64,000 nt of DNA from Bacteroidota bacterium (GTDB taxonomy: Bacteria > Bacteroidota > Bacteroidia > NS11-12g > UBA9320): positions 62,001 through 126,000 of the forward strand of contig WGNA01000007.1 of the NCBI GenBank assembly GCA_016124755.1. Reading direction: 5' to 3'. Below, piece by piece: positions 154-20,535 of the stretch (its first letter is position 1; each line of letters opens with the position of its first letter). The position numbers and the translations under genes were made by a program. Below the pieces are notes generated by a model. That model saw only the letters and a list, made by a program, of their open reading frames with translations, made no database searches and was not told where the DNA came from.

Positions 154-199
154 TCAGTTGCTGAAAACTATTCACAAGATTGAGCCTTCTCTGCTGCCA

Positions 200-3100: not shown

Positions 3101-6100
3101 GATATTCAATACGAAAAACCAACGATGGTGTTGGGAGTCGAGCAGAACGACATCAAGGCAAAATCAGATACGGCAGAATGGAATATCCGGATTTCCAATT
3201 CATCCGGAGTTTCAAATGCCAAAAACGTTTGGATATCCTATGCTAAAAATAACAACACCCGAATAACCGAAATTAAATACCGTTACGGAGGCACAACCAT
3301 TAGTCCGACCAACGATATCTTCCGGTTGGGTGATTTGTATTACGGTGAAACAATTGATCTGGTGGTGCGGGCGGTTTTTTCTAAATGCGGGGCAGATAGT
3401 TTTCCGCTTTATGTGGGTTACGACTGCGTGGGTTATCCCGATTCATTTGCACAATTCCCATGTTCCCCGGTAGTAGAAGTTCTGAAATATACACCGGTAA
3501 ACACCCGACTTTCAGCCTCCGTAAAAGATTCTTTGAACAACATTGATCTTTGTGCCCAAGTTCCGTTTACGATTACGGTAACCAATGAAGGAGAAGCCCG
3601 TGTTTTCGATGTTTATGCCGATGTAATTATCCGGGAAGGAATGACCTTTTCAGATACGGCCTGGGGATTTGAACCCGGCACCAACGATTCGTTTCCGCTT
3701 GCCGATCCGTTGTTCATCGGAAACAATACCTATCGTTTTTATATCTCATCTGCTTCCACTTCATTAAAACAGAAAGGACTGGCCGGCTTCTCCACCAAAG
3801 AACCCAATGTGGTAAAAATGAAGTTTTACATGTTCACAGATTGTGACTTTGTGAGCTCTTCCTATTTTTTAGTGAGACCGGGAGGAAATCTTCGGTGCGG
3901 AATGCCGGTAATTACTTCTTACGGAGTTGGTCAGCCGATCAATATCAAAGGGGTTGAAAAACCATATTTCTCCAGTTTTAATATGAACATCGCGCCGTTA
4001 GACATTTGTAATTACGACGGCAAAATCAGAATTAAGTTCATTAATCTCGGACCCGACACCACCGGCAACAAGGATAAAATTCAACTGCTGTTGCCCGACG
4101 GGATATTCGTTGATACATCCTATCTCATTTCCATTCACAATTCACCTGCTTCAAAACCGGTAATTACCAACAACGGTCAATACAAGGCTGAATGGGATAT
4201 TCCCATGAACACCATTCCCGGAGATTCAAGTGAATTTGAAATTAATACTTATGTGGTTCCGGCACTTTTGCCATGCGGATATACACAAATCATCGGGCAG
4301 GCCGTGGTAAAACAACCGGCCTTGTGTGTCGCAACTAATACGATGTGTAACATTGATGTGGCGACCAGTTCACAATTGATAATCGATTCGATTCAAAAAT
4401 CAATCTATCAGTTAAGTCTCGTAAACGCGATCAGTGTACCGAATGGTAACCGGGAAAAAGTGACGCTGACATACAACCTTTCCAATTCGGGTTCACAGAA
4501 AATAGACGGAAATGCCCTTGTAGTAAAGTATCTCGACGACGTAAACGGAAATCTACATCAGGATGCAGGTGAGGCAATCGTGCATACCGATACCATCTGG
4601 CAAAAAGTGGATGTTTCAAACCCCGCGACCGTTAGTGCAACCTTTAACCTGAGAACTATTCAAAGTTGCAGACTGGTTTTATTAATTGATTCAACCAATT
4701 GTGTATGCGATGCGACGTCATTGCAGGTTCCGGGAATCCGAATCATTAATGCGGGAAGAGACACAGCTGCATGCGCTTATACGGATATTACCATTGGTAC
4801 GGCTTCCATTCCCGGATGCACGTATTCCTGGTCGCCCGCGAATCAGGTTTTATTTCCTGATTCTTCTTCATCCGTTTTCAATTACACTAATTTATCGGCA
4901 ACAGACAGTGCATTCAGATTAATTCTTACCACCGATAAAGGAAGTTGTAAAACTACAGATACTGCTTTTATCACCTTATTCCCCGCGATGCAAATGGATC
5001 TTGCCCCGGGTTACGATTTGTGCAGAAGTGATTCGGTAATTATCGGAGATCTGGTAAAAGGAGGAAAAGGTTTCAAGAGCTATCAATGGTCTCCGGACTA
5101 CGCGATCAACAATCCGAACAGCGTAAAAGTGTGGGCAAAACCCGATACAACAACCACTTATACAATTCGTGTTGCAGATGCCCGGGGATGCAAAATGGTT
5201 GACTCCACAACCGTGAGAGTTTTGGATATTCCGATCGCATCTTTCAGCATTCGTGATACCTGCGCCGGTGAACTCTTCCCGTTTGTTCAACATACAAAAA
5301 CCGGCCTCGTGGGATTAGATTCTGTTTCGTGGGAGTTTGGCAATTTGGGAACAAGTCAGGATTATGAACCTGTAATTTATATTGACTCGGCTCAACGAGT
5401 AGATGTGCGTTTGTTTGTTCGCGATTCTGCAGGTTGCTTCGACGACACGGTTTCCACAGTTACTTCCTATCCGATACCGGAAGCTTCCTTTACACCGGCA
5501 AACGGCTGCCAGTTCGATTCCGTTAAACTCATTAACACTTCTTCAATTGCTTCCGGAACTTTTACTTCACAATGGACAATTGAAGGATCTGTTCTAAAAA
5601 CAAAAGATGCTTCGTTTCGATCAGCAGATACGGGAATTGTGATTTCGGAATTAAAAGTAACCAGCAATTTTGGTTGTTCCGGTGTGTACAGTGATACGAG
5701 CTATATATATGCTAAACCGGTTCTAAAACTAAGTGTTAATGAAGTTTGCCTCGGAGACAGCACTAAATTTCAGTTGCAAAATATTTTCGGATCAGACATG
5801 CTTTCTTCCGTTCTGTGGAAACTCGGTGATGGTAATTCCGACACGCTCATTGAGTTCACACATGTTTTTGCAGATACGGGAAGTTTCTCCAACACGGCAA
5901 TTATCATAACCAACAAGGCATGTTCAGATACCGCGATGGTGCAAAATCGTGTTCACGAAATTCCGGTAGCATCCCTTTCGGCAATTGATGTATGCCTGTC
6001 TGAACCCAGCATGTATAAGAACAAATCGGTGTCGTATGTCGATTCCATTACATCGGTTTACTGGAATTCGGGCTCCGGGTATTTTAAAGGTTCCGATTCT

Positions 6101-7441
6101 CTGAGCATAATCTGGCCGGATACCGGGAACCATGTTACGAATCTGATTGCCGAAACTTCCTTTGGTTGCAGAGATACCGCACAAATTATTTCGCGGACGT
6201 TTTATAAGGAAATTCCGAATTATACCATCACAGGAAATTGCCAGTATTCTGAAATTGAATTTACCTATTCTCCGCAGTTTACGGATTCAATTAAAAGAAT
6301 TGAATGGAAAGTTAAACCCAATGATACATTAACCGGAAATGATGTTGTAACCGATTATGATTCGTATGGCAAGCAGAACATTACATTAATTATTACGACT
6401 AATCACAATTGTTTATCCGACACATCTTTTGAAATAACCATCGATCCGAAACCTTTTGCAGACTTCACAACCGATCTTCCCTGCCTCGATAACGAAAGCG
6501 AAATTTCAGATATCACCGATAATGGGTTGTCTCCGATAATATGGAGGAATTGGGATTTGGGTGACGGAACATACGAATCAACGGCAGATGTTCATCATGT
6601 GTACGACAGCATTAAAACCTATTCGCTCACACTTATGGTTGAGAATGATAAAGCTTGCCGCGACACGGTTTCCAAAGCTTTAACCATTGAAACCATCGTT
6701 CGGCCTGATTTTTCGATTGACAGTGTTTGTATATCCGACAGTGTGACCGTTAAATATCTCACCTCCGGTTTGCCAATGCCCGGTTATTACACGTTCGACA
6801 TGGGTGATGGATCAACGGTAAGCAATCAGCCGCAATTCAAACATTCATATTCAACTGACGGGACTTTTCAGGTGAAACTAACGGTTTCGACTTCCGCTGA
6901 TTGTTCTTACGACACCACAAAAACCACCGTACTGTATCCGCTACCGGTTCCGGGGTTTGATCTTGATCCACCTTCTTCCGATATTCTCAACAGCGACATC
7001 ACGATTATAAACCGAAGTACCGGTGCAAGTGAATATTACTATCTTTTATCAGATGGTTCTGAGTTTACGGATCCGGGTTTTACCTATCATTTTTCGGATA
7101 GCGGAACTTATGTTATTCATCAGTTGGTAACCAACCCGTTTGGTTGTAAAGACAGCACCGATAAATCACTCCACATTAATTATCTGGTTAATATTCTGAT
7201 TCCGAATTCATTTACTCCGAATGGAGACGGTCTCAATGAATTATTTCAGCCGGGCGGACTTGGAGTTGTTCAGTACGATTTGTCTATTTATAACCGCTGG
7301 GGAGAAATGATCTACCATTCGGATACACAACCCTGGGATGGCAAAGATGCTATGATGGGAGTTTACATGTATGCGTTGAAGGTTGTTGATTACAACGGCA
7401 AAACACATTTCATGTACGGTGAGGTTCACCTGATTCGATAA
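200..7441 (+). CDS. giant T9SS type B sorting-domain surface protein with PKD-like repeats (2,413 aa)
   Basis: Very large secreted protein. A signal peptide (residues 1-27, ending SIAQ) is followed by about 1,500 residues of Cys- and Ser/Thr-rich beta-sandwich sequence with repeated forms such as LVNSGTDTARKL and VTNEGEARVFDV that resemble DUF11/CARDB-like modules. From about residue 1700 come several PKD-like domains with the typical WxFGDG signature (for example WDLGDG near residue 2117 and FDMGDG near 2200). The last 80 residues (IPNSFTPNGDGLNE, YNRWGE, PWDGK) are the gliding-motility-associated C-terminal domain (CHU_C, T9SS type B sorting signal). The predicted role is a cell-surface adhesin or filament exported by T9SS; its ligand is unknown. 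The frame is also open from a TTG at 158, but the -7 box at 146-153 makes ATG 200 the better start. It is transcribed alone. Confidence 0.85.
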   Translation: MIRSVYTPFKFFLVSAVFFLPFISIAQNKVSITTTNPSAIHLCAESEWLEIDIRNITTSTVSSIKAEVVLPTGMQYVSGTISGTGVSESNISNLQKPVFSLPDLSLAKSSTFRLKIMATCSMISWLSSGGLPQIKTTATYSGGSTSATGTPLTIYQPSVKITAITNQFATIDRGKATIRKITITNGGKGNVASLVFRQIHEKDLSLTGVSGGSISKSGDTAWSSFNKALFTTVGNKDSFLSQGESVEIIDTVYAIGCSKLKTYFNVTWGCNGSVCSQDNASANISITTKAPKLTYTAKSATTNCQSDVNHHLQELTLVNSGTDTARKLVVNIFQGVSTGYYQYEMSRIDESNITYQIGSSSFSKIYSGNTLGTYTGGAYACLGNSAVGSVELSFADLPPGESIHIKFYTIGCCPSDCGASFYAHRWKYNASYKNQCGTTITDAENFGSLGIYQGFGMLSYTPTDIIDNQTLELNYSITAASLLTPTSSGTFTAILKLPAGLSHSKNKSDFLIENEKNQSWQPTSIYQKSDTVFAIFKGTPTISLVRSELKIKVTGDCSSTSANKEQSYSLDILYNPDPSCSSACAYHLYCFSSKIRIHCNKTCNSGLRFSEFDARRITYGEPDNNNDGEADASGTLDMSRIKLERVMVGDTLLTTLRGKINAVGSTTTWRYLKAATTMDYGYYMKVAEVRLKIYRVGNLLYNCNGISHTYSTSGYSKTFTFDIGVSALISAKCPLYSGFLFTTKDSVELEVKYVYETNPGGVNREVLMKNEMYLSTVSNPTAAQRYQCDTFGGKFVQIGYYFTNYGRGVYSTNSCNEFEVSQNYYLGIGACCSNYAGNNIFPYEYRNWAIAKRSVLILPEGFDVVNARFYQYRTTGSGSASYTYNDSIKKIYVSRDTVVYDLESYHTPSGGNLIPSDDGFYGVVYYKLRANCAASQGVSTVMYDFVMDGQNQLSNVLDTVQSLTNSDDIQYEKPTMVLGVEQNDIKAKSDTAEWNIRISNSSGVSNAKNVWISYAKNNNTRITEIKYRYGGTTISPTNDIFRLGDLYYGETIDLVVRAVFSKCGADSFPLYVGYDCVGYPDSFAQFPCSPVVEVLKYTPVNTRLSASVKDSLNNIDLCAQVPFTITVTNEGEARVFDVYADVIIREGMTFSDTAWGFEPGTNDSFPLADPLFIGNNTYRFYISSASTSLKQKGLAGFSTKEPNVVKMKFYMFTDCDFVSSSYFLVRPGGNLRCGMPVITSYGVGQPINIKGVEKPYFSSFNMNIAPLDICNYDGKIRIKFINLGPDTTGNKDKIQLLLPDGIFVDTSYLISIHNSPASKPVITNNGQYKAEWDIPMNTIPGDSSEFEINTYVVPALLPCGYTQIIGQAVVKQPALCVATNTMCNIDVATSSQLIIDSIQKSIYQLSLVNAISVPNGNREKVTLTYNLSNSGSQKIDGNALVVKYLDDVNGNLHQDAGEAIVHTDTIWQKVDVSNPATVSATFNLRTIQSCRLVLLIDSTNCVCDATSLQVPGIRIINAGRDTAACAYTDITIGTASIPGCTYSWSPANQVLFPDSSSSVFNYTNLSATDSAFRLILTTDKGSCKTTDTAFITLFPAMQMDLAPGYDLCRSDSVIIGDLVKGGKGFKSYQWSPDYAINNPNSVKVWAKPDTTTTYTIRVADARGCKMVDSTTVRVLDIPIASFSIRDTCAGELFPFVQHTKTGLVGLDSVSWEFGNLGTSQDYEPVIYIDSAQRVDVRLFVRDSAGCFDDTVSTVTSYPIPEASFTPANGCQFDSVKLINTSSIASGTFTSQWTIEGSVLKTKDASFRSADTGIVISELKVTSNFGCSGVYSDTSYIYAKPVLKLSVNEVCLGDSTKFQLQNIFGSDMLSSVLWKLGDGNSDTLIEFTHVFADTGSFSNTAIIITNKACSDTAMVQNRVHEIPVASLSAIDVCLSEPSMYKNKSVSYVDSITSVYWNSGSGYFKGSDSLSIIWPDTGNHVTNLIAETSFGCRDTAQIISRTFYKEIPNYTITGNCQYSEIEFTYSPQFTDSIKRIEWKVKPNDTLTGNDVVTDYDSYGKQNITLIITTNHNCLSDTSFEITIDPKPFADFTTDLPCLDNESEISDITDNGLSPIIWRNWDLGDGTYESTADVHHVYDSIKTYSLTLMVENDKACRDTVSKALTIETIVRPDFSIDSVCISDSVTVKYLTSGLPMPGYYTFDMGDGSTVSNQPQFKHSYSTDGTFQVKLTVSTSADCSYDTTKTTVLYPLPVPGFDLDPPSSDILNSDITIINRSTGASEYYYLLSDGSEFTDPGFTYHFSDSGTYVIHQLVTNPFGCKDSTDKSLHINYLVNILIPNSFTPNGDGLNELFQPGGLGVVQYDLSIYNRWGEMIYHSDTQPWDGKDAMMGVYMYALKVVDYNGKTHFMYGEVHLIR

Positions 7442-7992: not shown

Positions 7993-10900
7993 CTATCTCA
8001 GGATGTGAAGAGTTCCGGTATATTCATACTGACCACCGGTTTTACTGGTTGCTTCAATTCGATAAGCATATACGCCCACATCACATTTAACCCCATGGAA
8101 TTTCCCATCCCACGATTGATTGATATCGTTTGATTCGAATACGACTTCGCCCCAACGATTAATAATAAGGATGTGGAACGACTGAACATTATTCCCCTGA
8201 ACGTGGTAAACCTCCGTCATTTCAGGTCCCTTACCATTCGGTGTAAAGGCGTTCGGGATATAAAGACTGATGTCGTCGACAACCGAAACGGTTTTTGTTA
8301 CAGACGATGAACAACCGAATTGATTGGTTGCACTGAGTGTTACTTTATAATCGTCGATGTAGCCTATAAAATAATGAGTTGGTTCCCACTCGGTTGATGT
8401 ATCTTTTGAATTACCGGTTCCAAAATCCCAAAGCCATGTAATCTGTTGGCCGGTTGGCGATAAGTTTATAAAATGGAATTTCGGTAACCGAATAGAAACC
8501 GGTTCATCCGGATCTGTTGTAAAATCTAAAACAGGCGCCGGAAGCACTTCAATCAATGAAGGAAAACTGTCTTTGAATTTGCATCCATCGACGGTTTGAG
8601 TTTGAAGTTTTAAAGTATAAACACCTGCTTTTTTGTAAAGGTGATCCGGTTTTACATCGTGTGTATGGTTCAGTGCGCCACTTGCAGGATCGCCATAATC
8701 CCAATCTATCCAGGTTCCCGAAAGGTCATTACTTCCTTTTACCACATCGAAATTGGGTGAAAATTTATAGGGTTCACATCCTGAGTAATTCGGAAGTTTG
8801 GGTTTTAAAGAAACTGATTGTTTAATCGGGATCAACACATCCTTATGCAACGAAGGACAAGCACCCTTTCCATACATATCAAAACTGAGATTGATATATC
8901 CGTTGGCATAATTACGCCCGGTTAATGGAATTACAGGATTGGATACGTTGAGATCTTTGAACTCTCCCTGATAAGTTCCGCTCGAGATATAAAGTGTACC
9001 TTCTTTAACGGTAAGATTCGGTATTACCAACGGAGTACTATCACATAAAACCCGTGGAAGCAGATTGTGACTGTATTTCGGAGAAGGGAAAATCTCAATT
9101 ACATTTTTGTAATTGTAGGTACATCCATCAGAATGCACCTGATAGTTAACCAATGTTTTACCCAATAAATCTCCGACAATCAGATTTTTCCCCGATACAT
9201 TTTTTCCGGAAAATACACCGGGATCCGGGTTGGCTATTAGCTTAATTGTATCGATTGCGCTGCAAACTTCTGCCGGGATATTAAATTGAATATCGGGTTT
9301 GCATTTCACGTTTAATGTAAAGCTACCACTGGCAAAACAACCGTATTGATCGTAGGTATAGATGAGATCAATGCTGCCGCAGAAATCCGGATTGATATGA
9401 TTGTCGCTAATGTCGTCGTAGTTCGTCCAACTACTCCAAATACCACCGGGAGGATCAATACCCAGAAGGTCTGATAAATTGTCTGGTAACCCTTGACAAA
9501 GTGTAATCACACCATTGCTTTCGATTTCCAGTGAGTTAATTCTTTTGATATAAGTAGTATCCGTTTCCGAACAACCATATTCATTCGTCATCGTACAGCG
9601 AATGCTGTGTTTACCTTCGGTGAGTGATGCAATGTCGAACCAATATTTTCCATTGTCGAAAGTATAGGTTGCAGGAGAACCATCGAGCATCCAATCGATT
9701 TGGTAATTGTTAAGATCAATCGGCTGACTAATCAGATTCGTAAGGTTAAACAAACCCGATTCATTGCAAATTGATACCGGCGACATCTTCATTTGGGGAA
9801 TTGAATTCACCACAATACAAAGGGTGTCTTTGGATACACATCCTTTCACCGGATCTGTAACCTGATATGATTTACAAACCAATGCTGGGGCGCTGCGATC
9901 GATACTGTCTGTGATAACAATACTTCCCGGGCCAAAATCCTTTTGAACTTCTGCCCATATTCCTCCTGAAGGGAATACGTAATTGTTGAGATCAATGCTG
10001 GAAGTTGTGCAATAGCCGCCTGTATCAGGAGTAAATTTAATTTCCGGACCGGTATTAATTTTTAAGGGAACCGTGTATTCATTTCTGCATTGCAGTTTTC
10101 CATTTTTACCGGTTGCAATCACCTTTAATCCGTCGTCGAATTGCGATTTAGAAGAAAGCAACGGGTCATAACTAATTCCATTTTTCAGATGAGCGCCGCC
10201 ATTAAACCAGTCGATTGACAACAGTGTTGAAGGACTTCCAACTTTAAGGTGTGCAACATCTCCGAGACAAAAGGAAGAGTCTGAGATTAACTTTAATTTT
10301 AGTCCGTTGAGATCAGCCTGTGTTAGTTCGATTGTGTCTGTTTTGGTAGTAGAACAACCGTATTGGGAATGAACCGTATAGGCGGAAACATATTGACCGG
10401 GGATTCCGGTTTCCAAAAGTGAATCGATGTATTTACCGGTGGTGAGTAAATCACTTCCGTTTAAACTCCAATGATGTACGAGATTTTTAATTGTATCTGA
10501 TGATTTAATCTCAACCGAACTTTCGATTCCGCCACACCAAAGTACTTTCGACTTGGTGGTGAATTCGGGAGCAGAATGAACATAAACATTCAATTGAACG
10601 GTTGATCTTCCCAACAGGGGGCAATGGTTGTCGAAAGTAACGACCTGAATTTTATATGCAGCATCACGCACGTCGCTGCCTGCGGGCTCCCAGATAAACT
10701 TCAACTTGTTATACGGAGCCTGAGCGCTTGATTTAATATTTCCATTTAAACCGGAAATGTCGGAGTCCCAATCAAACGAAACTGTATGCTGATCGCCTTT
10801 CTGACCATCGGGAAATTGATAAGGGGCATCGGTTGCAGAAAGTTCTATGTCCCATCTTTCACCGGCACAAATGTGAAAATCTGTTTGGGATAATGACAGT

Positions 10901-11853
10901 TGTGGAATGTTGTTGCCCTGAAACACAGTTACCGTTTGAATATCTCTTCGGATCAAACTGATCAATTCCATGGAAGTCCCCTTCTTTCGATAGGTTAAGA
11001 CCTCAAAGACAAGTGTTGCTTTCTCGCTGTTTTGTGTTGGAGTAAATACAATTTCTCCGGTTTTAGAATTCACATAATAACCAATAGGCAGTGCAGCCGT
11101 AGGGTCAGGAGAACATGTACTGCTTCCGTTACAATATACCGAGAGTGGACGATCCTGTGTATAACCAGATTGGTATGCAATCTCCTGTTGAATATCCGAC
11201 ATGGGTCTGCCTGTTCTGAAAACAACCGAATCTCCGGGTTGAATAATTTTAGCAATCGTGGATCGAATTGGTTGATTTACCGCGAGAATTAATTCCGGAT
11301 TTGGATTGAAAACCGGTGAATTATGGACTTCAAAAGGTCGGATAAAACTATAAGTGCAAAAAGCCGGATCCGTTCCTTTAATGTTGTCTATATCATCAGC
11401 CCGGTCACTTGATTTAACATATAAATCAAACCCGCAACCTGCATAAGATGAGTATTTATCAAAATCGACTTCGACATAATAACGATGAGCTTCAACGCCA
11501 TATCCAAATCCGGCTTTGCCTGTATCGCAGGTTGTTATAGTTGAGGAACAAACCGGAATTATCTTTCGGTAGTCTGAAAAAGTGAGATTGTATTTTTCCA
11601 GAAAGGATTGACTACAGGTGTTTTTAGAAGACCGGTAAACCAAAAGATCAAATCCGTCGCATGATTTCGTGTTATTTCCGCCACCATTTCCATTCAACTT
11701 GCACTCGCTGCAATCTCTGTAAATGGTTACCCAAATTTTGTATTTAGAATTCCCCTGATTTTCATAGGTGACTTCTCCACCCAACAGATTTACAGCCTGC
11801 AACTGCGGAAGCCAGCTCAGTATCGCCAGGAATATGGTAATTAACCGCTTCAC
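7993..11853 (-). CDS. giant T9SS type B sorting-domain protein, paralogue of the next gene (1,286 aa)
   Basis: Secreted protein. The signal peptide is residues 1-20, starting with GTG at 11853. The N-terminal region (GGEVTYE, IYRDC, EAHRYYVEVDF) is clearly related to that of the protein encoded at 12011-16645, including the conserved Cys pairs and the GEIVFTP segment around residue 265. A long run of Ig/PKD-like modules follows, with PKD signatures WDYGDP near residue 1054 and WDFGTG near 1150. The last 85 residues (IPNAFTPNG, INRWGE, SWDGK) form the type B sorting domain. The predicted location is the outer surface after T9SS export. It is preceded by a terminator, so it is probably transcribed separately from the operon upstream. 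Function beyond a surface or adhesin role is not inferable. Confidence 0.85.
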   Translation of the reverse strand: MKRLITIFLAILSWLPQLQAVNLLGGEVTYENQGNSKYKIWVTIYRDCSECKLNGNGGGNNTKSCDGFDLLVYRSSKNTCSQSFLEKYNLTFSDYRKIIPVCSSTITTCDTGKAGFGYGVEAHRYYVEVDFDKYSSYAGCGFDLYVKSSDRADDIDNIKGTDPAFCTYSFIRPFEVHNSPVFNPNPELILAVNQPIRSTIAKIIQPGDSVVFRTGRPMSDIQQEIAYQSGYTQDRPLSVYCNGSSTCSPDPTAALPIGYYVNSKTGEIVFTPTQNSEKATLVFEVLTYRKKGTSMELISLIRRDIQTVTVFQGNNIPQLSLSQTDFHICAGERWDIELSATDAPYQFPDGQKGDQHTVSFDWDSDISGLNGNIKSSAQAPYNKLKFIWEPAGSDVRDAAYKIQVVTFDNHCPLLGRSTVQLNVYVHSAPEFTTKSKVLWCGGIESSVEIKSSDTIKNLVHHWSLNGSDLLTTGKYIDSLLETGIPGQYVSAYTVHSQYGCSTTKTDTIELTQADLNGLKLKLISDSSFCLGDVAHLKVGSPSTLLSIDWFNGGAHLKNGISYDPLLSSKSQFDDGLKVIATGKNGKLQCRNEYTVPLKINTGPEIKFTPDTGGYCTTSSIDLNNYVFPSGGIWAEVQKDFGPGSIVITDSIDRSAPALVCKSYQVTDPVKGCVSKDTLCIVVNSIPQMKMSPVSICNESGLFNLTNLISQPIDLNNYQIDWMLDGSPATYTFDNGKYWFDIASLTEGKHSIRCTMTNEYGCSETDTTYIKRINSLEIESNGVITLCQGLPDNLSDLLGIDPPGGIWSSWTNYDDISDNHINPDFCGSIDLIYTYDQYGCFASGSFTLNVKCKPDIQFNIPAEVCSAIDTIKLIANPDPGVFSGKNVSGKNLIVGDLLGKTLVNYQVHSDGCTYNYKNVIEIFPSPKYSHNLLPRVLCDSTPLVIPNLTVKEGTLYISSGTYQGEFKDLNVSNPVIPLTGRNYANGYINLSFDMYGKGACPSLHKDVLIPIKQSVSLKPKLPNYSGCEPYKFSPNFDVVKGSNDLSGTWIDWDYGDPASGALNHTHDVKPDHLYKKAGVYTLKLQTQTVDGCKFKDSFPSLIEVLPAPVLDFTTDPDEPVSIRLPKFHFINLSPTGQQITWLWDFGTGNSKDTSTEWEPTHYFIGYIDDYKVTLSATNQFGCSSSVTKTVSVVDDISLYIPNAFTPNGKGPEMTEVYHVQGNNVQSFHILIINRWGEVVFESNDINQSWDGKFHGVKCDVGVYAYRIEATSKTGGQYEYTGTLHILR

Positions 11854-12010: not shown

Positions 12011-15000
12011 TTAACGAATCAGTGTAACTGTTCCGCTGTAAGAATATGGTTCTCCACTCCAGCTTACCACTTCCAGATAGTATGCATACACATCTTGCTG
12101 GCAGGGTTCACCTTTGTAGGTTCCGTCCCACTTGAGACTTCTGTCGGTAGTTTCGAACAAACGCTCACCCCATCGGTTGAAGATAATCATGTGATACGTT
12201 TGAACTCCGTCATTCACAATAGCTTTAAATCCATTGTTGTCTTGAGGTCCGCCTCCGTCTGGAGAGAAGGCATTCGGGATGAATACCAGAATGTCTGGAC
12301 CAATAATCACCGGATAGGTGAATTGATCTGTACATCCGTGATTAGTAGTCACCTTAAGCGTTACCGTATAACTTCCGGTATCAGACGGATAGAAGAATGT
12401 CGGATTAATCTTGGTTGATGTATCCTGAAGATCTGTCGGATCACCAAAATCCCATTCGTTGGTTTCGATGTAGGCCCCCAAAACATCATCCACTTTGGAC
12501 TGATTGTTAAATGTAAATCTCGGCAGTGCCGCAGTTGTACTGTTGTTCGGATTTGGAACAAACTGAGCAACCGGTATCGGATATACATCTACATTTAGTG
12601 ATAATGTTGTATCACAACCAAAAGCGGAAGTGAGTTTAAGAGTCGCGGTATTCGTTCCGTTAACCGTATACTGATGACTTGGGTTCTGCAAATTATCCGT
12701 TGCACCATCTGAATATGTCCATTCGTACGTCGCCGTTGTCGGATCAATTGTATTCAGCATTTGAGTGGTAATGGTTCCGGTATGAGGATTACATCCATCC
12801 GGATCATCAACCACAATATCGGCCTTTGGTCTTGGATGCACCGTTACGGTATAAAGATCATCCGTAAACGGGCAAGCATTACCCGGATCTGTCATCACAT
12901 AAAGATTAAGAGATTCTACAGAATCAGAATTGGTAGTAAAGGTATATTTCACTTTACCGGATTTCGGATTATCTACAGTTCCCTTTGTGAGCGGCACCCA
13001 GGTAATCGAATTCGTATTGCTATACTCCGCCTCTATATTGAGCGTCATACCACCTGCGACCCGACACATTGCCGTATCGTCATTGAGAATGTCTATCTTA
13101 GGTTTGGCTTCGATCTGCACCTCAACAGAATCCTGTCCCCTGCACCCTTTTATTGATACGAAGTCGTAGGTAATAAAGAACGGTGTGTTGGTTGGAGAGC
13201 TCTTCGGGTTGAAGGTATTGGAAGTCATCGCACCGGAATAAGGCGCCGACCAGGTTCCACCCGCCGGAATTCCGGAAAGTGCAATCGGATCCTGATTCTC
13301 ACAGAACAGATATGGAGGATTATTCTTCACAATCTGAAGCGGTGTTTCTATGATATTGGGTTTCGGCAGCGGATTTATAATAAGAACGGTGTCTTTATAT
13401 ATCGGACAACCCGAACGATCGTGATAGTACCGCATATAATATGTGTACGCATTCGGATATGTCGGCTCCGGAGTGAGCAGGGTATTTAATGTATCCTCCT
13501 GCAAAGCTCCGTTATTAAGACCCTGATTAAGATCCTTGGCCGGTCTGTAGGTTCCAGGCATAGTATCGTAAGCATACCAGTATCCGTCAACCGGCGTTAC
13601 GTTGCTCAATTTTTTCAACTCAACCGGACCTTCATCCCAACACAATTCAGGGAATCCTGCAAAACTGATTTTCGGAACTTTAGTGATCGCAATGGAAGAA
13701 GTATCTCTGTTGTAGCAACCAAACTGGCTCCTGTAAACAAATTCGATTTTAATTGTATCTGCGGCTTTTGTTCCCAACGGAATGGTTTGCTCATCAATAA
13801 CAAGTTTGAATTTCTGAGGTGCTCCCGGTCCACCGCTTCCTTCATCAACAATTATCTTTTTAGGATCATACGTTTTACAATCAACACAGTTGAATGCCTG
13901 TCGCCCAAGATCCGGATTCCCCGGTAGTTTGATGATTTTATCATCTTTCAGATAAACCACCTGTTTGTACTGACAGAAATAACCATCCCTGAGTTCAACC
14001 TGCGGAAGCGGGTTCACTTTAATATCGAAAGAATCATTCTTAACACAACCCGTCTTCGCATCTATAAATTTATAGGAAACTTTGTGTGTTTTGGTAGCCG
14101 GTGCACAGGCAAGTGCTGTTTCGAATATGTATCCACTGGAAACGTAGGTAGGATTAACCTTATCAGACCACACTCCTCCTTTGGCATTCGGATCTTCAAG
14201 CAGTCTGAGATTCACCACACCCGCATCACAACATATTTCCATGTTACCCGGCATCTTTACAATTGGCAACGGGTTCACCGTGATCTTAACCGTATCATCA
14301 TCGAAACATGTAGTTGTGTCTTCTGTGATATAAAGTTCGAGTCGGAAATCTGTGGATGCCTTGATGTTATAGGAAACCGTATCCATGGTTCCGAGATAGG
14401 TCGGAGGCGCGGTCGACTGGTCGTACCAACGATAGGTTCCGGTTTGATACGTTTTAGTTGCCGTATCTAAACCGCCGGCAGGAAGAATCAACAAATCGTT
14501 CCAACACAAAACCTGATCGGGACCTGCTTTGGCCTCGACATGATCATTCACATCCAGATACATCGAATCTTCCGCGAAACAACCCAGACTGTCAATTACC
14601 TTTATTGAATACCAACCTTCGTTGAAGACGGTAACATTTGTATCGCGGCTGAATAAGGCATCTTTATAATACCACTCTTTTATAAGAGAGTCTCCTTGTC
14701 TGATTCTGTATTCTGAAGTATCCCTCGGATCATCCCAATAAGCTAAAGAGTCATTAGGAATGATGGTGATGGAATCGTAATCACATATTCTTCGATCCGG
14801 GCCGATTTTTACAATCGGATTCGGTCGCAGGAATACAGTGACGCTATCCCATGCTGTACATTTATTCTTATCGGTGATTTCAACATAGAAACTTGTATCG
14901 GGATTCCAGTTCGGCACTCTTACATCCAAATAATCGGTCGTATCACCTGTTCCCCATTTATATTTAATAGGAAACAACCCATTAAGCACATTCGCTTTTA

Positions 15001-16645
15001 GTTTAAGTGTTTGACCCGCACAAACAAAGGTGTCGTTACCTAAGGCTAATGCGACTTCCAGTAATGGTGGCACAATGAGCGTATCGTAATAGTCATTCGG
15101 ACAATTCGATTTATTATTAATTGTGTGTTGAATAATATAGGTTCCCCCTCTTCTGAATTGAAGAGTATCGTGTTGTTTAGAACTGATGTATGAGCCATTA
15201 CTCTTGAAATAAACAATCTTTCTATCAATGATCAGTGCGCCTTTTCCGTCCCTGACCTGCCAAGTATATTTTGCCGGTGTTTTGAAGTTAGCGGTCGGGA
15301 CACTGGTTACCGTGTATTTACCACACTCAAGGGTATCCACATCTCTTTCGGTTTCAGCAATTGGTTTAACCAAAACTGAAAACGCACGAACCGTTACAGC
15401 GTTGAGCGGACAAGCATTATCACGTGCAGTTACTGTGAATGAATACGGAAGATCACTTGCAGTACCTGCCGGCGGAGTCCAGCAAAAACGCCCGGATTGG
15501 TGAAGCGCGGTCGGATTCGGGATCGTGAAACTTGCCCCCGGAATACCGCGGTTCCACTTAACGGTAACCGTATCGGGATCCGGTGTTGGAAGCGGAGGTG
15601 CGGGGACCTTCACTTTATCATCGGTCGTAATGGTAAAACACAACTGAGATCCTTCGCAGACATTGTATGAATAGGGCCCGTTAATAATTGGCGGGTTATT
15701 CCCGGGACATGTCTTCGTTATAAACTGCATATCCCTCCTGGTAATACCAATTAATTCATAAGTCCCGGATTTATTTTTTCGCCATTCTTTTACTTCCAGA
15801 ACACCAACTGTTTTTTCATCACATTTGGTTGGAGTAAAGATCAAGTCACCTGTTTCCGGATCGAGGTATAAACCAATCGGAGTTGCAGCATTTGGATTTA
15901 CTACTCCTTTACCGGTTGGGTCATATACCTGAAAAGGTTTGTTTTTAGAATAATTACCGCTGTAGCCGATAGCACTTCCCTGACCTTTCAAAGGATCGGA
16001 AAACGAATAAGAAAGTGAGTCGAAGTTGGATGTATCCGACGCACCATTGTTATAGTAAAAAGGCTGGTTACAGCAGAGGAATGCGATTGGTTCGGTAGTA
16101 AGTGCCGGAGAAGAGTTACACGGAGCTTTGCAAATATCAATCATCGCATAAGTGTAGAAGTTTTGATTGGCCGCTCCAGTCGTGATGTCTGAGTTTCTGC
16201 AACACTGACCGGTTTCAATAATGAACTGGCAACATTTACTGCTACCGCTACCAATTAAACTTGAATAAGGCGATTTATTAAAATCGATAGTTGTTGTGTA
16301 CGTATGTTCTTCAATTCCCTCACCTGTTCCATACGTATTTTTTGGATTACAAGGTTTTCCGGAAGTTGCACATACCGGTGTAACATCGCGTATTCCCTGA
16401 AGTGAGAGACTCACGCTGGCAGAACTACCGCCGCTGGCACACTTCACACGTGTTTCACTGCTCGGGTTTGAAAAAGACACCCCCTGACAACTACGATAAT
16501 ATTTTACCGTAAATTCAAATTTGAGCGTGTCGATACATTTGTAGGTGATATCCGCCCCCATAACGTGAGTGGCCCTTGCGATTTGAACATTCGCAAAAAA
16601 GGATAATCCTAAAATGGCCAACAGGCTGATTACAAGTTGTTTCAT
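12011..16645 (-). CDS. giant T9SS type B sorting-domain surface protein (1,544 aa)
   Basis: Secreted protein with signal peptide residues 1-26 (ending ARATH) when started at ATG 16645. An in-frame ATG at 16678 would put eleven charged residues before the signal peptide, so 16645 is preferred. The N-terminal module (HVMGADITYKC, YYRSCQG) has many Cys pairs and matches the paralogue at 7993-11853. Repeated Ig-like modules follow, each with a Cys-containing question-like pattern (for example GPDRRICDYDS and GPDQVLCWND). PKD signatures occur near residues 1315 and 1400, and the sorting domain (IPNAFSPDGG, FNRWGER, KWDG) covers residues 1453-1544. It lies 93 bases downstream of the type A protein and the sigma/anti-sigma pair and ends at a strong terminator. 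It may therefore be the last gene of that operon, although a separate promoter cannot be excluded. Confidence 0.85.
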   Translation of the reverse strand: MKQLVISLLAILGLSFFANVQIARATHVMGADITYKCIDTLKFEFTVKYYRSCQGVSFSNPSSETRVKCASGGSSASVSLSLQGIRDVTPVCATSGKPCNPKNTYGTGEGIEEHTYTTTIDFNKSPYSSLIGSGSSKCCQFIIETGQCCRNSDITTGAANQNFYTYAMIDICKAPCNSSPALTTEPIAFLCCNQPFYYNNGASDTSNFDSLSYSFSDPLKGQGSAIGYSGNYSKNKPFQVYDPTGKGVVNPNAATPIGLYLDPETGDLIFTPTKCDEKTVGVLEVKEWRKNKSGTYELIGITRRDMQFITKTCPGNNPPIINGPYSYNVCEGSQLCFTITTDDKVKVPAPPLPTPDPDTVTVKWNRGIPGASFTIPNPTALHQSGRFCWTPPAGTASDLPYSFTVTARDNACPLNAVTVRAFSVLVKPIAETERDVDTLECGKYTVTSVPTANFKTPAKYTWQVRDGKGALIIDRKIVYFKSNGSYISSKQHDTLQFRRGGTYIIQHTINNKSNCPNDYYDTLIVPPLLEVALALGNDTFVCAGQTLKLKANVLNGLFPIKYKWGTGDTTDYLDVRVPNWNPDTSFYVEITDKNKCTAWDSVTVFLRPNPIVKIGPDRRICDYDSITIIPNDSLAYWDDPRDTSEYRIRQGDSLIKEWYYKDALFSRDTNVTVFNEGWYSIKVIDSLGCFAEDSMYLDVNDHVEAKAGPDQVLCWNDLLILPAGGLDTATKTYQTGTYRWYDQSTAPPTYLGTMDTVSYNIKASTDFRLELYITEDTTTCFDDDTVKITVNPLPIVKMPGNMEICCDAGVVNLRLLEDPNAKGGVWSDKVNPTYVSSGYIFETALACAPATKTHKVSYKFIDAKTGCVKNDSFDIKVNPLPQVELRDGYFCQYKQVVYLKDDKIIKLPGNPDLGRQAFNCVDCKTYDPKKIIVDEGSGGPGAPQKFKLVIDEQTIPLGTKAADTIKIEFVYRSQFGCYNRDTSSIAITKVPKISFAGFPELCWDEGPVELKKLSNVTPVDGYWYAYDTMPGTYRPAKDLNQGLNNGALQEDTLNTLLTPEPTYPNAYTYYMRYYHDRSGCPIYKDTVLIINPLPKPNIIETPLQIVKNNPPYLFCENQDPIALSGIPAGGTWSAPYSGAMTSNTFNPKSSPTNTPFFITYDFVSIKGCRGQDSVEVQIEAKPKIDILNDDTAMCRVAGGMTLNIEAEYSNTNSITWVPLTKGTVDNPKSGKVKYTFTTNSDSVESLNLYVMTDPGNACPFTDDLYTVTVHPRPKADIVVDDPDGCNPHTGTITTQMLNTIDPTTATYEWTYSDGATDNLQNPSHQYTVNGTNTATLKLTSAFGCDTTLSLNVDVYPIPVAQFVPNPNNSTTAALPRFTFNNQSKVDDVLGAYIETNEWDFGDPTDLQDTSTKINPTFFYPSDTGSYTVTLKVTTNHGCTDQFTYPVIIGPDILVFIPNAFSPDGGGPQDNNGFKAIVNDGVQTYHMIIFNRWGERLFETTDRSLKWDGTYKGEPCQQDVYAYYLEVVSWSGEPYSYSGTVTLIR

Positions 16646-16738
16646 CTTAGGTTTTCTCTGGAGTAAAGCTGCATTCATACTAAAAACGGGCTAATTTACA
16701 ATTTTTAAGGTTTGTTAAACGGGTGGTTGACTATCGCT

Positions 16739-18280
16739 TTAAATTCTCTTTACTATTAATCTTTGAGTGAATATTCCACTTTCTGTTAAGACACTCATTT
16801 GGTAGATACCCTCACTTAATTGTTCGCTGCATCTCACCAAAATTTTTTCATGATTTACATATTCATATTCTGGCTGGGCGATTTCTCTGCCCTGCAAATC
16901 AGTTATTATTATAGAATGGATGGTACATAAACCTGTGATAAAAAGATTCTCACCTGCATTCGCCGGATTCGGATATAATCTGATTTCTGATGCTAATGCC
17001 GATTCTGTAACTCCAAGGTGTGTATTATAATGTTGTAGCACTTCATCTGCAAGATTTGCTGCTACCGTTCCGCCGGTTTGCGATCCGGTTGCAACAGAGT
17101 AAGCAACATCTAATTTCATTATGGCACCGGGTTTTACATTTAAAAAGTAACCGAGCATCAACATGTTTTTATGGCCAGCTTCTTCATCAACCCAATTTTC
17201 CGAACTGAAATCCGGATCGCTGGTTCCGGAATATAAAAAGGGGGTTGCCGGATTCTGCAGATCTGTTCCGGTATTTCCCCGGCTGCGGCGACGACCGTTC
17301 TGCCAGTATCCTTTCATCACATTGTACAATTGTGCTGTATCGGATGGCAGCGACCTTGTTAAGTCTGATTGATTGAAGCCAACAGTTCCAACCAATTTCT
17401 GATTCAAAAACACAACCGTCGCCGTGGGGAGTTCTTTTCCATAACCATTTTCGCCTTCATCGTTATCATCGGCATTATATCCGTAAACTGCATTTCTGCT
17501 TACGTCTGTTCCCACCAGATTATCGGTGTCATTTCCCAGAATAAAATCGGTAAACACACCATAATACAAGGTGTCGTAAACAAAGGAAGACCGGTTAATG
17601 AGATAAGTTGACTTAATCAGAATGTGATTTTTTTCATCCGAATTCAGCGTGTAATTCATCGACCGAACTTCCATGCGAAGCGGGTTACTCGTGTTTATTA
17701 CCTTGTGCTCTTCAGCTGCAACATCATTATAAATGGTATAAGCATTTTCATTTCCGGGAACCAATGGGTAATCTCCTGTTTCCGGTGAATATTTTCCATC
17801 TTTATCCCAGTCGGCAAAGGGTGCCTGAACCGGATTAATATCTTTTTCCTTTGAGCGGGCCGGCCAGTTTTGAATCGTCAGCGGCATCTGGTAATCCGGT
17901 TTATTGAAATTCTGAACGTGATAATTAATATCTGTTCTGGAAACTTCCCATACAGAATTCCAGTCTTCAGGGCTTTTCGCAATAATTTTTACAGTGTCAA
18001 TCGGCCCTGGCCAGAATTCGGTTTTAGACGATGAAATACTTACAGCACTGTGTATCTGGGAACCATTTAATCCCAACAGCCATAATCCGCTATGGGCAAA
18101 CATCATTTTATTACTTCCTGCCGGGAACTCAGCAATGGCTCCGGTTGGTGTCGAAAACAAACTTCCATTGGATTGAACCACAGAAGACAATCCGGTGTGC
18201 CCAACAACCGATGTATCCCATTGCGGGTAAGCCCACAACGAGGGAATGATCATTAAATATAAAACAAGAAGCCGTTTCAT
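16739..18280 (-). CDS. secreted T9SS type A sorting-domain protein (513 aa)
   Basis: The signal peptide is residues 1-20 (ending WAYPQ). The mature part has Asp-rich turns such as DWDKDGKYSPETGDYP (about residues 155-170), which resemble dockerin/EF-hand type calcium loops, and no enzyme motif that I recognise. The last 80 residues (IRLYPNPANAGENLFI, IIITDLQGREI, LSEGIYQMSV) form a classic type A T9SS sorting domain. It starts 19 bases after the stop of the anti-sigma-like gene and is probably co-transcribed with it. It is a candidate target, or a sensed component, of the sigma system. Outer-membrane or secreted location is predicted. Confidence 0.8.
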   Translation of the reverse strand: MKRLLVLYLMIIPSLWAYPQWDTSVVGHTGLSSVVQSNGSLFSTPTGAIAEFPAGSNKMMFAHSGLWLLGLNGSQIHSAVSISSSKTEFWPGPIDTVKIIAKSPEDWNSVWEVSRTDINYHVQNFNKPDYQMPLTIQNWPARSKEKDINPVQAPFADWDKDGKYSPETGDYPLVPGNENAYTIYNDVAAEEHKVINTSNPLRMEVRSMNYTLNSDEKNHILIKSTYLINRSSFVYDTLYYGVFTDFILGNDTDNLVGTDVSRNAVYGYNADDNDEGENGYGKELPTATVVFLNQKLVGTVGFNQSDLTRSLPSDTAQLYNVMKGYWQNGRRRSRGNTGTDLQNPATPFLYSGTSDPDFSSENWVDEEAGHKNMLMLGYFLNVKPGAIMKLDVAYSVATGSQTGGTVAANLADEVLQHYNTHLGVTESALASEIRLYPNPANAGENLFITGLCTIHSIIITDLQGREIAQPEYEYVNHEKILVRCSEQLSEGIYQMSVLTESGIFTQRLIVKRI

Positions 18281-18299
18281 TAATGAACTACCCGAAGCA

Positions 18300-19817
18300 T
18301 CAGAATTTGTAACTTAAACCTGCTCGGAAACCATAGATCAGATCACTCTGACGAATTGCATTTGATCCAAAAGTGACAGATGCATTCGGTCTGAAATACT
18401 TGTTGGTATTGAGCTCTCCAATCAGACTGAAACGCTGATTGAGATTATATGTAGCGCCTGCGGTAAAGTTTACCGAGCAAGCCATTTTATACCTCGAATA
18501 TGCTGAAGTGTTCAAGTTCATTTCATTTCCAACTGGGTTCAGAATAAAGCCGTTGTTTCGGGTTCCGATAAGTATAGCTACAGAGGAACCGGCAAATGCA
18601 CTCCACTTATTTGTGTACAGGAAAGAATATCTCAGACCGATCGGAAGATTAAGATATGAGTAGGTATTCACACCTTTAATGTTACTGGTCACCTGAATGT
18701 TCTGATACGTCGTATCATAAGTGGTTACTGTCTTTGGAGGCAACACAGGATCATATACGGTTACTTCGTGTGAATTGACATCCATAGTTTTAAACTCCCT
18801 TGTTCTATCGTAATTCAACTGCTCTTTTCGCTGAGTAAAGCTGAGCCCTAAGGTTCCTTCCCATCTGGTTGAGAATTCATAATTGGCTCTGATTACGGCC
18901 TGTGATGAAATTGCGGGGCTTTCGCTACGATTGCGAAGGGTACTCCAGTTTGCATTTGAACCAGAAAGAGTTCGGTCTCCATAAGCAACTCCTGCCAAAA
19001 CATCAACAGACCATTTGCGAATCGGTGGATTGTCGGGAAGATCTGTATGATGGCCTTCGGTTTTGGAATCTGAATCAACATCCTCTGGAATTTCCCGGTT
19101 TGCAGGTGTTTCTGTTTGATTTGCTAATTCTTTTGCCTGATCAGATGAAGTCTTATCATCCGGATTTTCACCATTTCTTCCTAAACCGTCAACCGTGTTT
19201 TCATGAGATGGCTTGTCTGCCAGTTCTTTCGAATGGTTGAGATCGGCCGTGTTTTCAGTTTGTGATTCCTGTGATTTATTTAACACATCAGTATATCCGG
19301 GAGTCTCTGTCGCAACTGGATTTTCTCCGGGCAATTCATTTTCTCCAAAACCGTCATGGTTATTATTCATTTCTCCATTGTTTTTGTTTGAAGAAGGATT
19401 CGGATGACCGCCAATTACGTTTGAGGTACTTTGATTATTATTTTGAGTAGTTGCCCCATTTTCACGGATTTCTGATGAATGGTTTTCTTCAGAATTCTGA
19501 TCATTTTGCTGTGGGCTAATGGCTGATTCGGTTTTTTGATGAATTGTATGTTGACTAATTACAGGTGATTTTGTGGATTCTCCGGCAAGGGATTGACGAT
19601 CATTCTTAATATCACCGAACCACCAAACAGAAGCAATAATTAACATTAAAGCGGCGGCACCGGAGATTATTCTGAGTTTGTGAATGATCAAACGGTTCTT
19701 AAATACATGCCAAGTACCTCTTTGGGCAAATATCCCGTCGGCAAGAGGAGCCGCTTCTTCGTGATTCAGAAGTTTATCCTTAAGCAGGTCTTCCCAATTG
19801 TTCGTATTCTGGTTCAT
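18300..19817 (-). CDS. anti-sigma-like protein predicted to span both membranes (505 aa)
   Basis: The architecture is visible in the sequence. A short acidic/basic cytoplasmic head (residues 1-48, with NWEDLLKDKL) is followed by one membrane segment (49-68, ISGAAALMLIIASVWWFG). A long low-complexity linker rich in Asn, Gln, Glu and Ser comes next (about 70-265). The C-terminal part (266-505) has beta-barrel features: alternating strands, a start WSVDVLAGVAYG and a terminal Phe (GLSYKF). The stop of the sigma-factor gene overlaps its start codon (TAATG), so the two are translationally coupled. From memory, a family of dual-membrane-spanning anti-sigma factors with this layout has been described in Bacteroides thetaiotaomicron; membership here is inferred from layout and not tested. 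The role would be to pass outer-membrane state to the ECF sigma factor. Confidence 0.75.
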   Translation of the reverse strand: MNQNTNNWEDLLKDKLLNHEEAAPLADGIFAQRGTWHVFKNRLIIHKLRIISGAAALMLIIASVWWFGDIKNDRQSLAGESTKSPVISQHTIHQKTESAISPQQNDQNSEENHSSEIRENGATTQNNNQSTSNVIGGHPNPSSNKNNGEMNNNHDGFGENELPGENPVATETPGYTDVLNKSQESQTENTADLNHSKELADKPSHENTVDGLGRNGENPDDKTSSDQAKELANQTETPANREIPEDVDSDSKTEGHHTDLPDNPPIRKWSVDVLAGVAYGDRTLSGSNANWSTLRNRSESPAISSQAVIRANYEFSTRWEGTLGLSFTQRKEQLNYDRTREFKTMDVNSHEVTVYDPVLPPKTVTTYDTTYQNIQVTSNIKGVNTYSYLNLPIGLRYSFLYTNKWSAFAGSSVAILIGTRNNGFILNPVGNEMNLNTSAYSRYKMACSVNFTAGATYNLNQRFSLIGELNTNKYFRPNASVTFGSNAIRQSDLIYGFRAGLSYKF

Positions 19818-20353
19818 TACTTTTTCTCTGCCTGTGCTTTTTCTAAAAGGTTGATCAGGTATTTTCTTGCTCTCGCATATTGCGAACGGGAAGTACTTTC
19901 ATTAATCCCAAGCATGTTTCCAATCTCCTTATGATTATATCCTTCAACCGCACAGAGTTGAAAGACGAGTTTATATCCTTCAGGCATTTGCCCGATTAAA
20001 TTCATAATTTCTTTAACCCCCATGGAACCGATAATGGTAGGTAGAGTTGATGGTTCATCCACATCCTCGATATCACCCGGTTCAAACTTCAGCGCTCTTT
20101 TATCGCGGCTTCGAAGTGCGGTGTTCACCATTATTCTTCGCATCCAGCCTTCAAAAGATCCTTCGCCACGGAAGTACGATATCTTGTCAAAGATTTTAAT
20201 AAAAGCATCCTGCAGAACATCTTCTGCTTCCTCTCTTGTATTGCTGTATCTGAGACAAACTGCGAACATCTTGTTTGCGTACTTATTATATAGCTTTCCC
20301 TGGCAGTCCCGGTCTTCGCGAATACAACCTTCTATCAGCTCCTCTTCGCTCAT
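19817..20353 (-). CDS. ECF-type RNA polymerase sigma factor (178 aa)
   Basis: A sigma-70 family, extracytoplasmic-function regulator. Region 2 is clear (ALRYSN-type segment AVCLRYSNTREEAEDVLQD, then FEGWMRRIMVNTALR), and region 4 shows the helix-turn-helix EGYNHKEIGNMLGINESTSRSQYARARKYL. There is a short linker between the two. ATG 20353 (MSEEELIEGC) matches the usual family start. A longer frame from TTG 20395 is possible, but it overlaps a near -7 box (TTGATTTG). The stop overlaps the start of the anti-sigma-like gene by one base. Downstream genes encode T9SS cargo, so the sigma factor may control surface-protein expression or envelope stress. Confidence 0.9.
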   Translation of the reverse strand: MSEEELIEGCIREDRDCQGKLYNKYANKMFAVCLRYSNTREEAEDVLQDAFIKIFDKISYFRGEGSFEGWMRRIMVNTALRSRDKRALKFEPGDIEDVDEPSTLPTIIGSMGVKEIMNLIGQMPEGYKLVFQLCAVEGYNHKEIGNMLGINESTSRSQYARARKYLINLLEKAQAEKK

Positions 20354-20535
20354 CGCGGGATCCTCTTCAGTTCTCTGTGGTTTTTGGGTTTTCAAATCAA
20401 TGACTCACGCAAATGACTAAGTGATGCACGTACCGGTTAAAATTGATGAATATTTTGAAAGTCAACTTTCAAAGTTTTGAATTTCAATCAGATGTATTCC
20501 AGAGATTTTTTGAATTTCCGGCTTTACGACTCCTA

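Follow-up and report, generated by a model that had tools for sequence, protein, structure and literature searches.

Organization of the locus

The DNA studied here, referred to as the window, is a stretch of 64,000 nucleotides (nt) from contig WGNA01000007.1 of a Bacteroidota bacterium. On its minus strand four genes lie in series, which according to the open reading frame (ORF) calls and the profile matches code for an extracytoplasmic function (ECF) sigma factor, a protein resembling the dual-membrane anti-sigma factors (Dma) of Bacteroides thetaiotaomicron, a type A surface protein of the type IX secretion system (T9SS), here called typA, and a giant T9SS type B protein, typB1. The sigma factor (19817-20353, 178 amino acids from the ATG) matched the Pfam families Sigma70_r2 and Sigma70_r4_2 with 54 and 49 bits, respectively, and scored 84 bits with NCBIfam NF058625, under the cut-off of 130; sigma factors from 16 relatives shared 47-72% identity with it. 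The stop codon of its gene and the start codon of the putative Dma-type anti-sigma gene (18300-19817, minus strand, 505 amino acids) are joined in TAATG, with the A common to both genes, exactly as an earlier note on this DNA had claimed.

The typA gene (16739-18280, minus strand, 513 amino acids) starts 19 nt past the Dma gene, and typB1 (12011-16678, minus strand, 1555 amino acids) follows 60 nt past typA; the succession of a type A and a giant type B gene described in the earlier note is borne out by the ORFs and the profiles alike. The C-terminal sorting domain of typA (residues 435-511) was recognized by TIGR04183 with 30.4 bits against a cut-off of 23, the Pfam family PF18962 (25.7 bits) being slightly below its cut-off of 27. 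In typB1 a conserved 'HVMGADITY..C' domain at the N-terminus is accompanied by PKD repeats and by CHU_C (41.5 bits, cut-off 27), and the protein also matched TIGR04131 (37.8 bits, cut-off 35). SprA was found in the same genome with 2395 bits.

Immediately after the typB1 stop codon an intrinsic terminator could be recognized (minus strand, reading from 11997 to 11970), having a 12-pair stem with 7 G-C pairs, a loop of 4 and a TTTTTTT tract. No comparable hairpin was found in the intergenic gaps inside the four-gene set. The natural reading is that the four genes form one operon, presumably expressed as a single transcript. The earlier note had treated the genes between 7993 and 16645 as a unit; this holds for typB1, while the other gene, a conserved neighbour coding for a second type B protein (7993-11853, minus strand, 1286 amino acids, CHU_C 52 bits), is placed outside the operon since the terminator precedes it. 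It is probably a transcription unit of its own, and the sigma-promoter motif described below was not found upstream of it (region L259). The gene at 158-7441 sits on the opposite strand.

The structure predicted for typA from three sequences was too poor for use (mean predicted local distance difference test, pLDDT, 44.7), and in a sequence search of solved structures only its sorting domain gave matches. The Cys-rich N-terminal domain of typB1 (15779-16678, 'HVMGADITY.C...YRDC') is common to several giant proteins per genome; it had no match in Pfam and no relative among the solved structures by sequence search.

Predicted architecture of the dual-membrane protein

The 505-residue protein was modelled with AlphaFold2 using an alignment of 26 sequences, from the window and 25 related loci. 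Its N-terminal head (residues 1-47; 19677-19817, minus strand), the predicted sigma-binding part, contains two helices of low confidence (8-16 and 27-34) and the motif D..F...L....P...W..I, which is common to the partners of homologous sigma factors throughout the phylum. The sequence then shows a hydrophobic stretch preceded by positive residues, a predicted inner-membrane helix at about residues 48-68 (19614-19676, minus strand), and this stretch is contained in the modelled helix 36-68. It is followed by a predicted disordered periplasmic linker of about 198 residues (about 69-266; 19020-19613, minus strand), which is poorly conserved across the relatives and in which the pLDDT was mostly below 50 (about residues 69-262).

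The C-terminal part (residues 266-505; 18303-19022, minus strand) was predicted as an outer-membrane barrel, no soluble periplasmic sandwich being obtained. Eight strands were counted, and in residues 269-504 most blocks of ten residues had a pLDDT of 88-98. In structural alignments the barrel was superimposed on OmpA (Z 18.3, root mean square deviation (rmsd) 4.1 over 177 residues), on a further OmpA structure, 9fzc_A (Z 17.1, rmsd 2.8 over 166 residues), on NspA (Z 17.0), OmpW (Z 15.9) and OprF (Z 15.7), and PagL also aligned. With the Pfam profile OMP_b-brl the protein gave a match only below the cut-off. We infer from the model that the OmpA-like barrel would be inserted in the outer membrane. 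The dual-membrane architecture suggested in the earlier note, namely a helix, a long disordered linker and a barrel in one chain, is in this way reproduced as a predicted structure, with confidence in case of the barrel.

Conservation of the gene order

The gene of the 505-residue protein was present in 28 of 58 genomes, its own included, as judged by protein search. In 19 neighbourhoods of the best relatives, all in other genomes, the order and strand of the sigma, Dma, typA and typB1 genes were kept wherever the contig reaches; two sigma genes and one typA gene absent from the ORF selection were recovered by tblastn. The same order recurs in about ten genera belonging to two families, beyond what chance would give, and the proteins themselves have diverged deeply, the identity to the window protein being 15-25% for Dma and 25-33% for typA. 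Counted from the coordinates in 65 genomes of the order, Dma stood directly upstream of 28 of the 30 standalone typA proteins, the exceptions being G011:C27 and G000:C6. The arrangement of the sigma, Dma and typA genes is the same in L083 and L085, both of them named metagenome-assembled genomes, and the former has typB1 as well.

A second sigma-Dma pair is present in the genome of the window (L050:5625-9944, G000:C20) and overlaps the gene of an 820-residue T9SS type A protein (Por_Secre_tail 42.7 bits, DUF7619). Both pairs seen in this genome thus adjoin a cargo gene.

A promoter motif at the sigma genes

Upstream of the sigma gene the pattern GCA[AGT]C[AG]-N16-[AGT]GTC[AT] was found in 16 of 17 genomes, the window included, with identical spacing, and the consensus promoter of the relatives' sigma genes reads GCARCR-N16-NGTCWT. 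The corresponding putative autoregulated promoter of the window is located at 20398-20430 on the minus strand, with GCATCA (20427-20422) as the -35 and AGTCAT (20405-20400) as the -10 element, separated by N16. When only the -35/-10 core was scored with a matrix trained without the window, this site reached 12.0, the top value of the 64 kb, followed by 10.7. The matrix also recovered the sigma-gene site in L037 and L048, both of which were outside the training set, and a score of 10 was reached just 25 times in the 630,614 positions of the collected loci. In the G007 locus the sole site with a score of 10 or more sits between typA and typB1. ECF operons are usually autoregulated, and the assignment of the motif to this sigma factor rests on that; the sigma factor would accordingly transcribe its own operon.

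Matches situated 76-149 nt upstream of typB1 (L032, L033, L035, L043, L045, L046, L048) were considered as a second promoter and were not counted, because they coincide with the typA sorting-domain codons for C-N/S-x6-G-V-Y and because in the window and in L031 the match is disrupted (GTC to ATC). These codons, at 16801-16833 (minus strand) in the window and at the equivalent positions elsewhere, mimic the promoter with the same N16 spacing, which may be a coding coincidence or a hidden typB1 promoter.

Unlinked type B genes sharing the promoter motif

The pattern GCARCR-N16-DGTCWT was searched in 14 genomes, genes with the typB1 N-terminal domain were searched independently, and the coordinates were compared. 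Out of 133 motif hits 12 preceded one of the 59 domain genes by 0-150 nt in sense orientation, as against 0.016 expected. One of these coincidences is typB1 itself in G007, the rest are unlinked paralogues. In the reverse test a score of at least 10 was obtained in 14 of 60 regions upstream of domain genes, mostly at sites 0-80 nt before the domain, compared with 1 of 60 on the antisense strands and 0 of 300 shuffles, which preserve the base composition only. The controls were thus the coordinate coincidence, the antisense strands and the shuffles; the pattern read backwards was dropped as an unfair control. Three more targets in G009, chosen by the motif before the identity of the genes was known, do not have the domain and carry T9SS sorting domains at their ends (L279, type A, 40.8 bits; L280, CHU_C, 64.0 bits; L281, CHU_C, 45.4 bits).

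The -35 element of the sigma promoter and that of the unlinked targets covary by genus (Fisher p 0.0014, own tabulation). In genus g3 it is mostly GCAGCG at the sigma gene and the targets, in g4 and g13 it is GCAACA/G at both, as would be expected if one sigma factor reads the sigma promoter as well as the targets. The link to T9SS cargo put forward in the earlier note is strongly supported by these sequence comparisons, and the promoter shared with unlinked type B genes extends it beyond the locus; the predicted output of the switch is T9SS cargo supply.

The motif was also seen in L283:436-631 (G037, score 23.0) and L284:3228-3030 (G049, score 19.8), some 60 nt ahead of a conserved frame of 35 residues, which in G037 reads MAQKPEIQPHNNVRKGVQKPQRVSDRGFEQKAAGV; on the same strand there is no larger gene directly downstream.

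Proposed switch and alternative explanations

We consider it probable that the operon encodes a sigma/anti-sigma switch of the Dma type, which governs, as its output, how much T9SS surface protein is supplied. The 505-residue protein is predicted to span both membranes, with the head in the cytoplasm, the linker across the periplasm and the barrel in the outer membrane. The barrel end would register a change at the outer membrane, upon which the sigma factor would be freed and would transcribe the sigma, Dma, typA and typB1 genes. Transcription of the operon would raise the amount of cargo and also restore the brake, so that a burst of cargo would come with new anti-sigma protein. The sigma factor would moreover transcribe unlinked giant type B genes through GCARCR-N16-NGTCWT, as seen in silico in the relatives and weakly in the genome of the window.

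Several observations weigh against this model. The window promoter has diverged, its full matrix score in the leave-one-out setting being just 3.5. Since orthologous targets are not independent, the P values, which are uncorrected for shared ancestry, overstate the evidence. Many type B paralogues have no motif, and elsewhere in the phylum the gene directly after a sigma-Dma pair is in most cases not T9SS cargo. Checking 11 domain genes in the genome of the window gave one clear site, belonging to a 1569-residue type B protein (G000:C18, core score 12.2), and one or two weak ones, of which that in G000:C5 has a core score of 7.8 and lies 19 nt before the domain; a third match (L254, 11.2) lies 192 nt upstream. 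With the GCATCR variant of the motif no additional intergenic site was found in this genome. The best full-matrix match seen there (21.3) precedes a gene that is not cargo, that of a di-haem cytochrome c peroxidase (L285:663-1911 in G000:C31, PF03150 168.8 bits), the motif being about 65 nt before it.

The cargo might also be part of the input of the switch and not just its output: exported typA, or typB1, would contact the barrel and report the secretion status, and on failure of export the contact would be lost and the switch would respond. The above-chance linkage of typA to Dma (28 of 30) would fit this, as would the precedent of PorA, a C-terminal domain (CTD) protein upstream of PorXY-SigP in Porphyromonas gingivalis (PMC7712824), and the pairing of homologous sigma factors elsewhere with anti-sigma-like proteins that bear a T9SS sorting domain. 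The tight linkage is, however, explained by co-regulation as well, and we regard a role of the cargo in the input as unlikely. It is quite improbable in our opinion that the genes form an ordinary Dma pair with a vesiculation or polysaccharide role as known from B. thetaiotaomicron, the T9SS genes being passengers of the operon. The architecture is the same as that of Dma1 and Dma2, and bt_1555-1557, genes of the same operon in B. thetaiotaomicron, were upregulated in the dma2 mutant yet were dispensable for the vesicle phenotype (PMC13088901); against this, unlinked T9SS genes share the promoter, and typA and typB1 were kept through the deep divergence of Dma. Vesicles may be co-regulated alongside the cargo. 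As to the reader of GCARCR-N16-NGTCWT, another sigma factor could govern both the operon and the type B genes, as several ECF factors per genome are possible and the motif was assigned by way of the usual ECF autoregulation. Almost all relatives have the motif upstream of their sigma gene, and it covaries with the targets by genus, which makes this very unlikely.

Comparison with known systems

In surface signalling of the FecR/FecI type an inner-membrane anti-sigma factor relays a signal from the outer membrane, and FecR requires a separate TonB-dependent receptor. The predicted relay of the window is similar, but in it the anti-sigma factor and the barrel are parts of one protein. B. thetaiotaomicron is not known to have a T9SS. 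In a Bacteroidales gut member, Candidatus Merdivivens (L118), a partner protein matched profile A1 at 9e-13.

The closest likeness is to Dma1/Das1 and Dma2/Das2 of B. thetaiotaomicron, described by Pardue et al. 2026 (PMC13088901), who cite Pardue et al. 2024, PNAS, on Dma. These proteins have an anti-sigma head, one transmembrane helix, a disordered tether and a C-terminal barrel, their genes form one operon with an adjacent ECF21 sigma gene, and the operon genes are upregulated on deletion of dma2; the reported outputs are nigD1, vesicles and polysaccharide loci (PMC13088901). The window protein shares the plan of head, helix, tether and barrel as predicted, together with the adjacent ECF sigma gene, and by this likeness its head would hold the sigma factor in the cytoplasm. 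The operon and the predicted regulon differ, as they comprise surface proteins of both T9SS types, A and B. The earlier note took the T9SS link to be new relative to the vesiculation role, and indeed the term 'type IX' is absent from PMC13088901. When full texts were searched for anti-sigma factors that span membranes together with T9SS, the one result was a citation in a paper with a different topic, the search having covered few subscription papers, which leaves the novelty unproven.

An autoregulated ECF sigma factor coupled to T9SS is also found in the PorXY-SigP system of P. gingivalis (PMC7712824). SigP differs in using a two-component system and in driving machinery genes, while the window has a predicted dual-membrane anti-sigma factor as the partner and cargo genes as the predicted targets. 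In the literature searched this ECF link governs the machinery, and the window system is a compact, conserved candidate for the cargo. It bears on the way in which Bacteroidota adjust the production of giant surface proteins to the condition of their outer membrane and T9SS, a question made testable by the defined promoter and the list of targets. The Dma family would gain a predicted output besides vesicles and polysaccharide loci.

Putative anti-sigma partners elsewhere in the phylum

The partners were surveyed for the 80 best homologues of the window sigma factor in named genomes. The gene after the sigma gene usually codes for a protein in which the head motif recurs along with a single predicted helix, and the outer part varies: it is a barrel, a PKD/CHU_C part, or a short tail, in which case a separate outer-membrane-like gene comes next. 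CHU_C was above the Pfam cut-off in 8 of the 10 partners tested (31.6-63.6 bits). All eight are encoded directly after a homologous ECF sigma gene (L101:7542-8681 in Crocinitomix catalasitica, L106:10528-11400, L112:10527-11474, L114:10548-11864, L121:10537-11625, L123:10534-11514, L127:6631-7620 and L136:10512-11360); TIGR04131 was above its cut-off in the partners of L101, L121, L123 and L127. By their sequence these are putative anti-sigma factors carrying a T9SS signal, which would be a second tie of this sigma group to T9SS. No description of putative anti-sigma factors ending in a T9SS sorting domain was found in the literature searched. A wider idea, which we find doubtful and offer tentatively, is that Bacteroidota possess one-protein envelope gauges, in which a shared anti-sigma head is placed on a barrel or on a T9SS sorting domain, reads barrel assembly or the engagement of the secretion machine, and sets the transcription of giant T9SS proteins.

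Downstream of the sigma match in L108, L111, L116, L128, L132, L135, L143 and L150 an anti-sigma-like protein of about 230-260 amino acids is followed by an outer-membrane-like gene; the short protein and the separate gene are possibly a split Dma.

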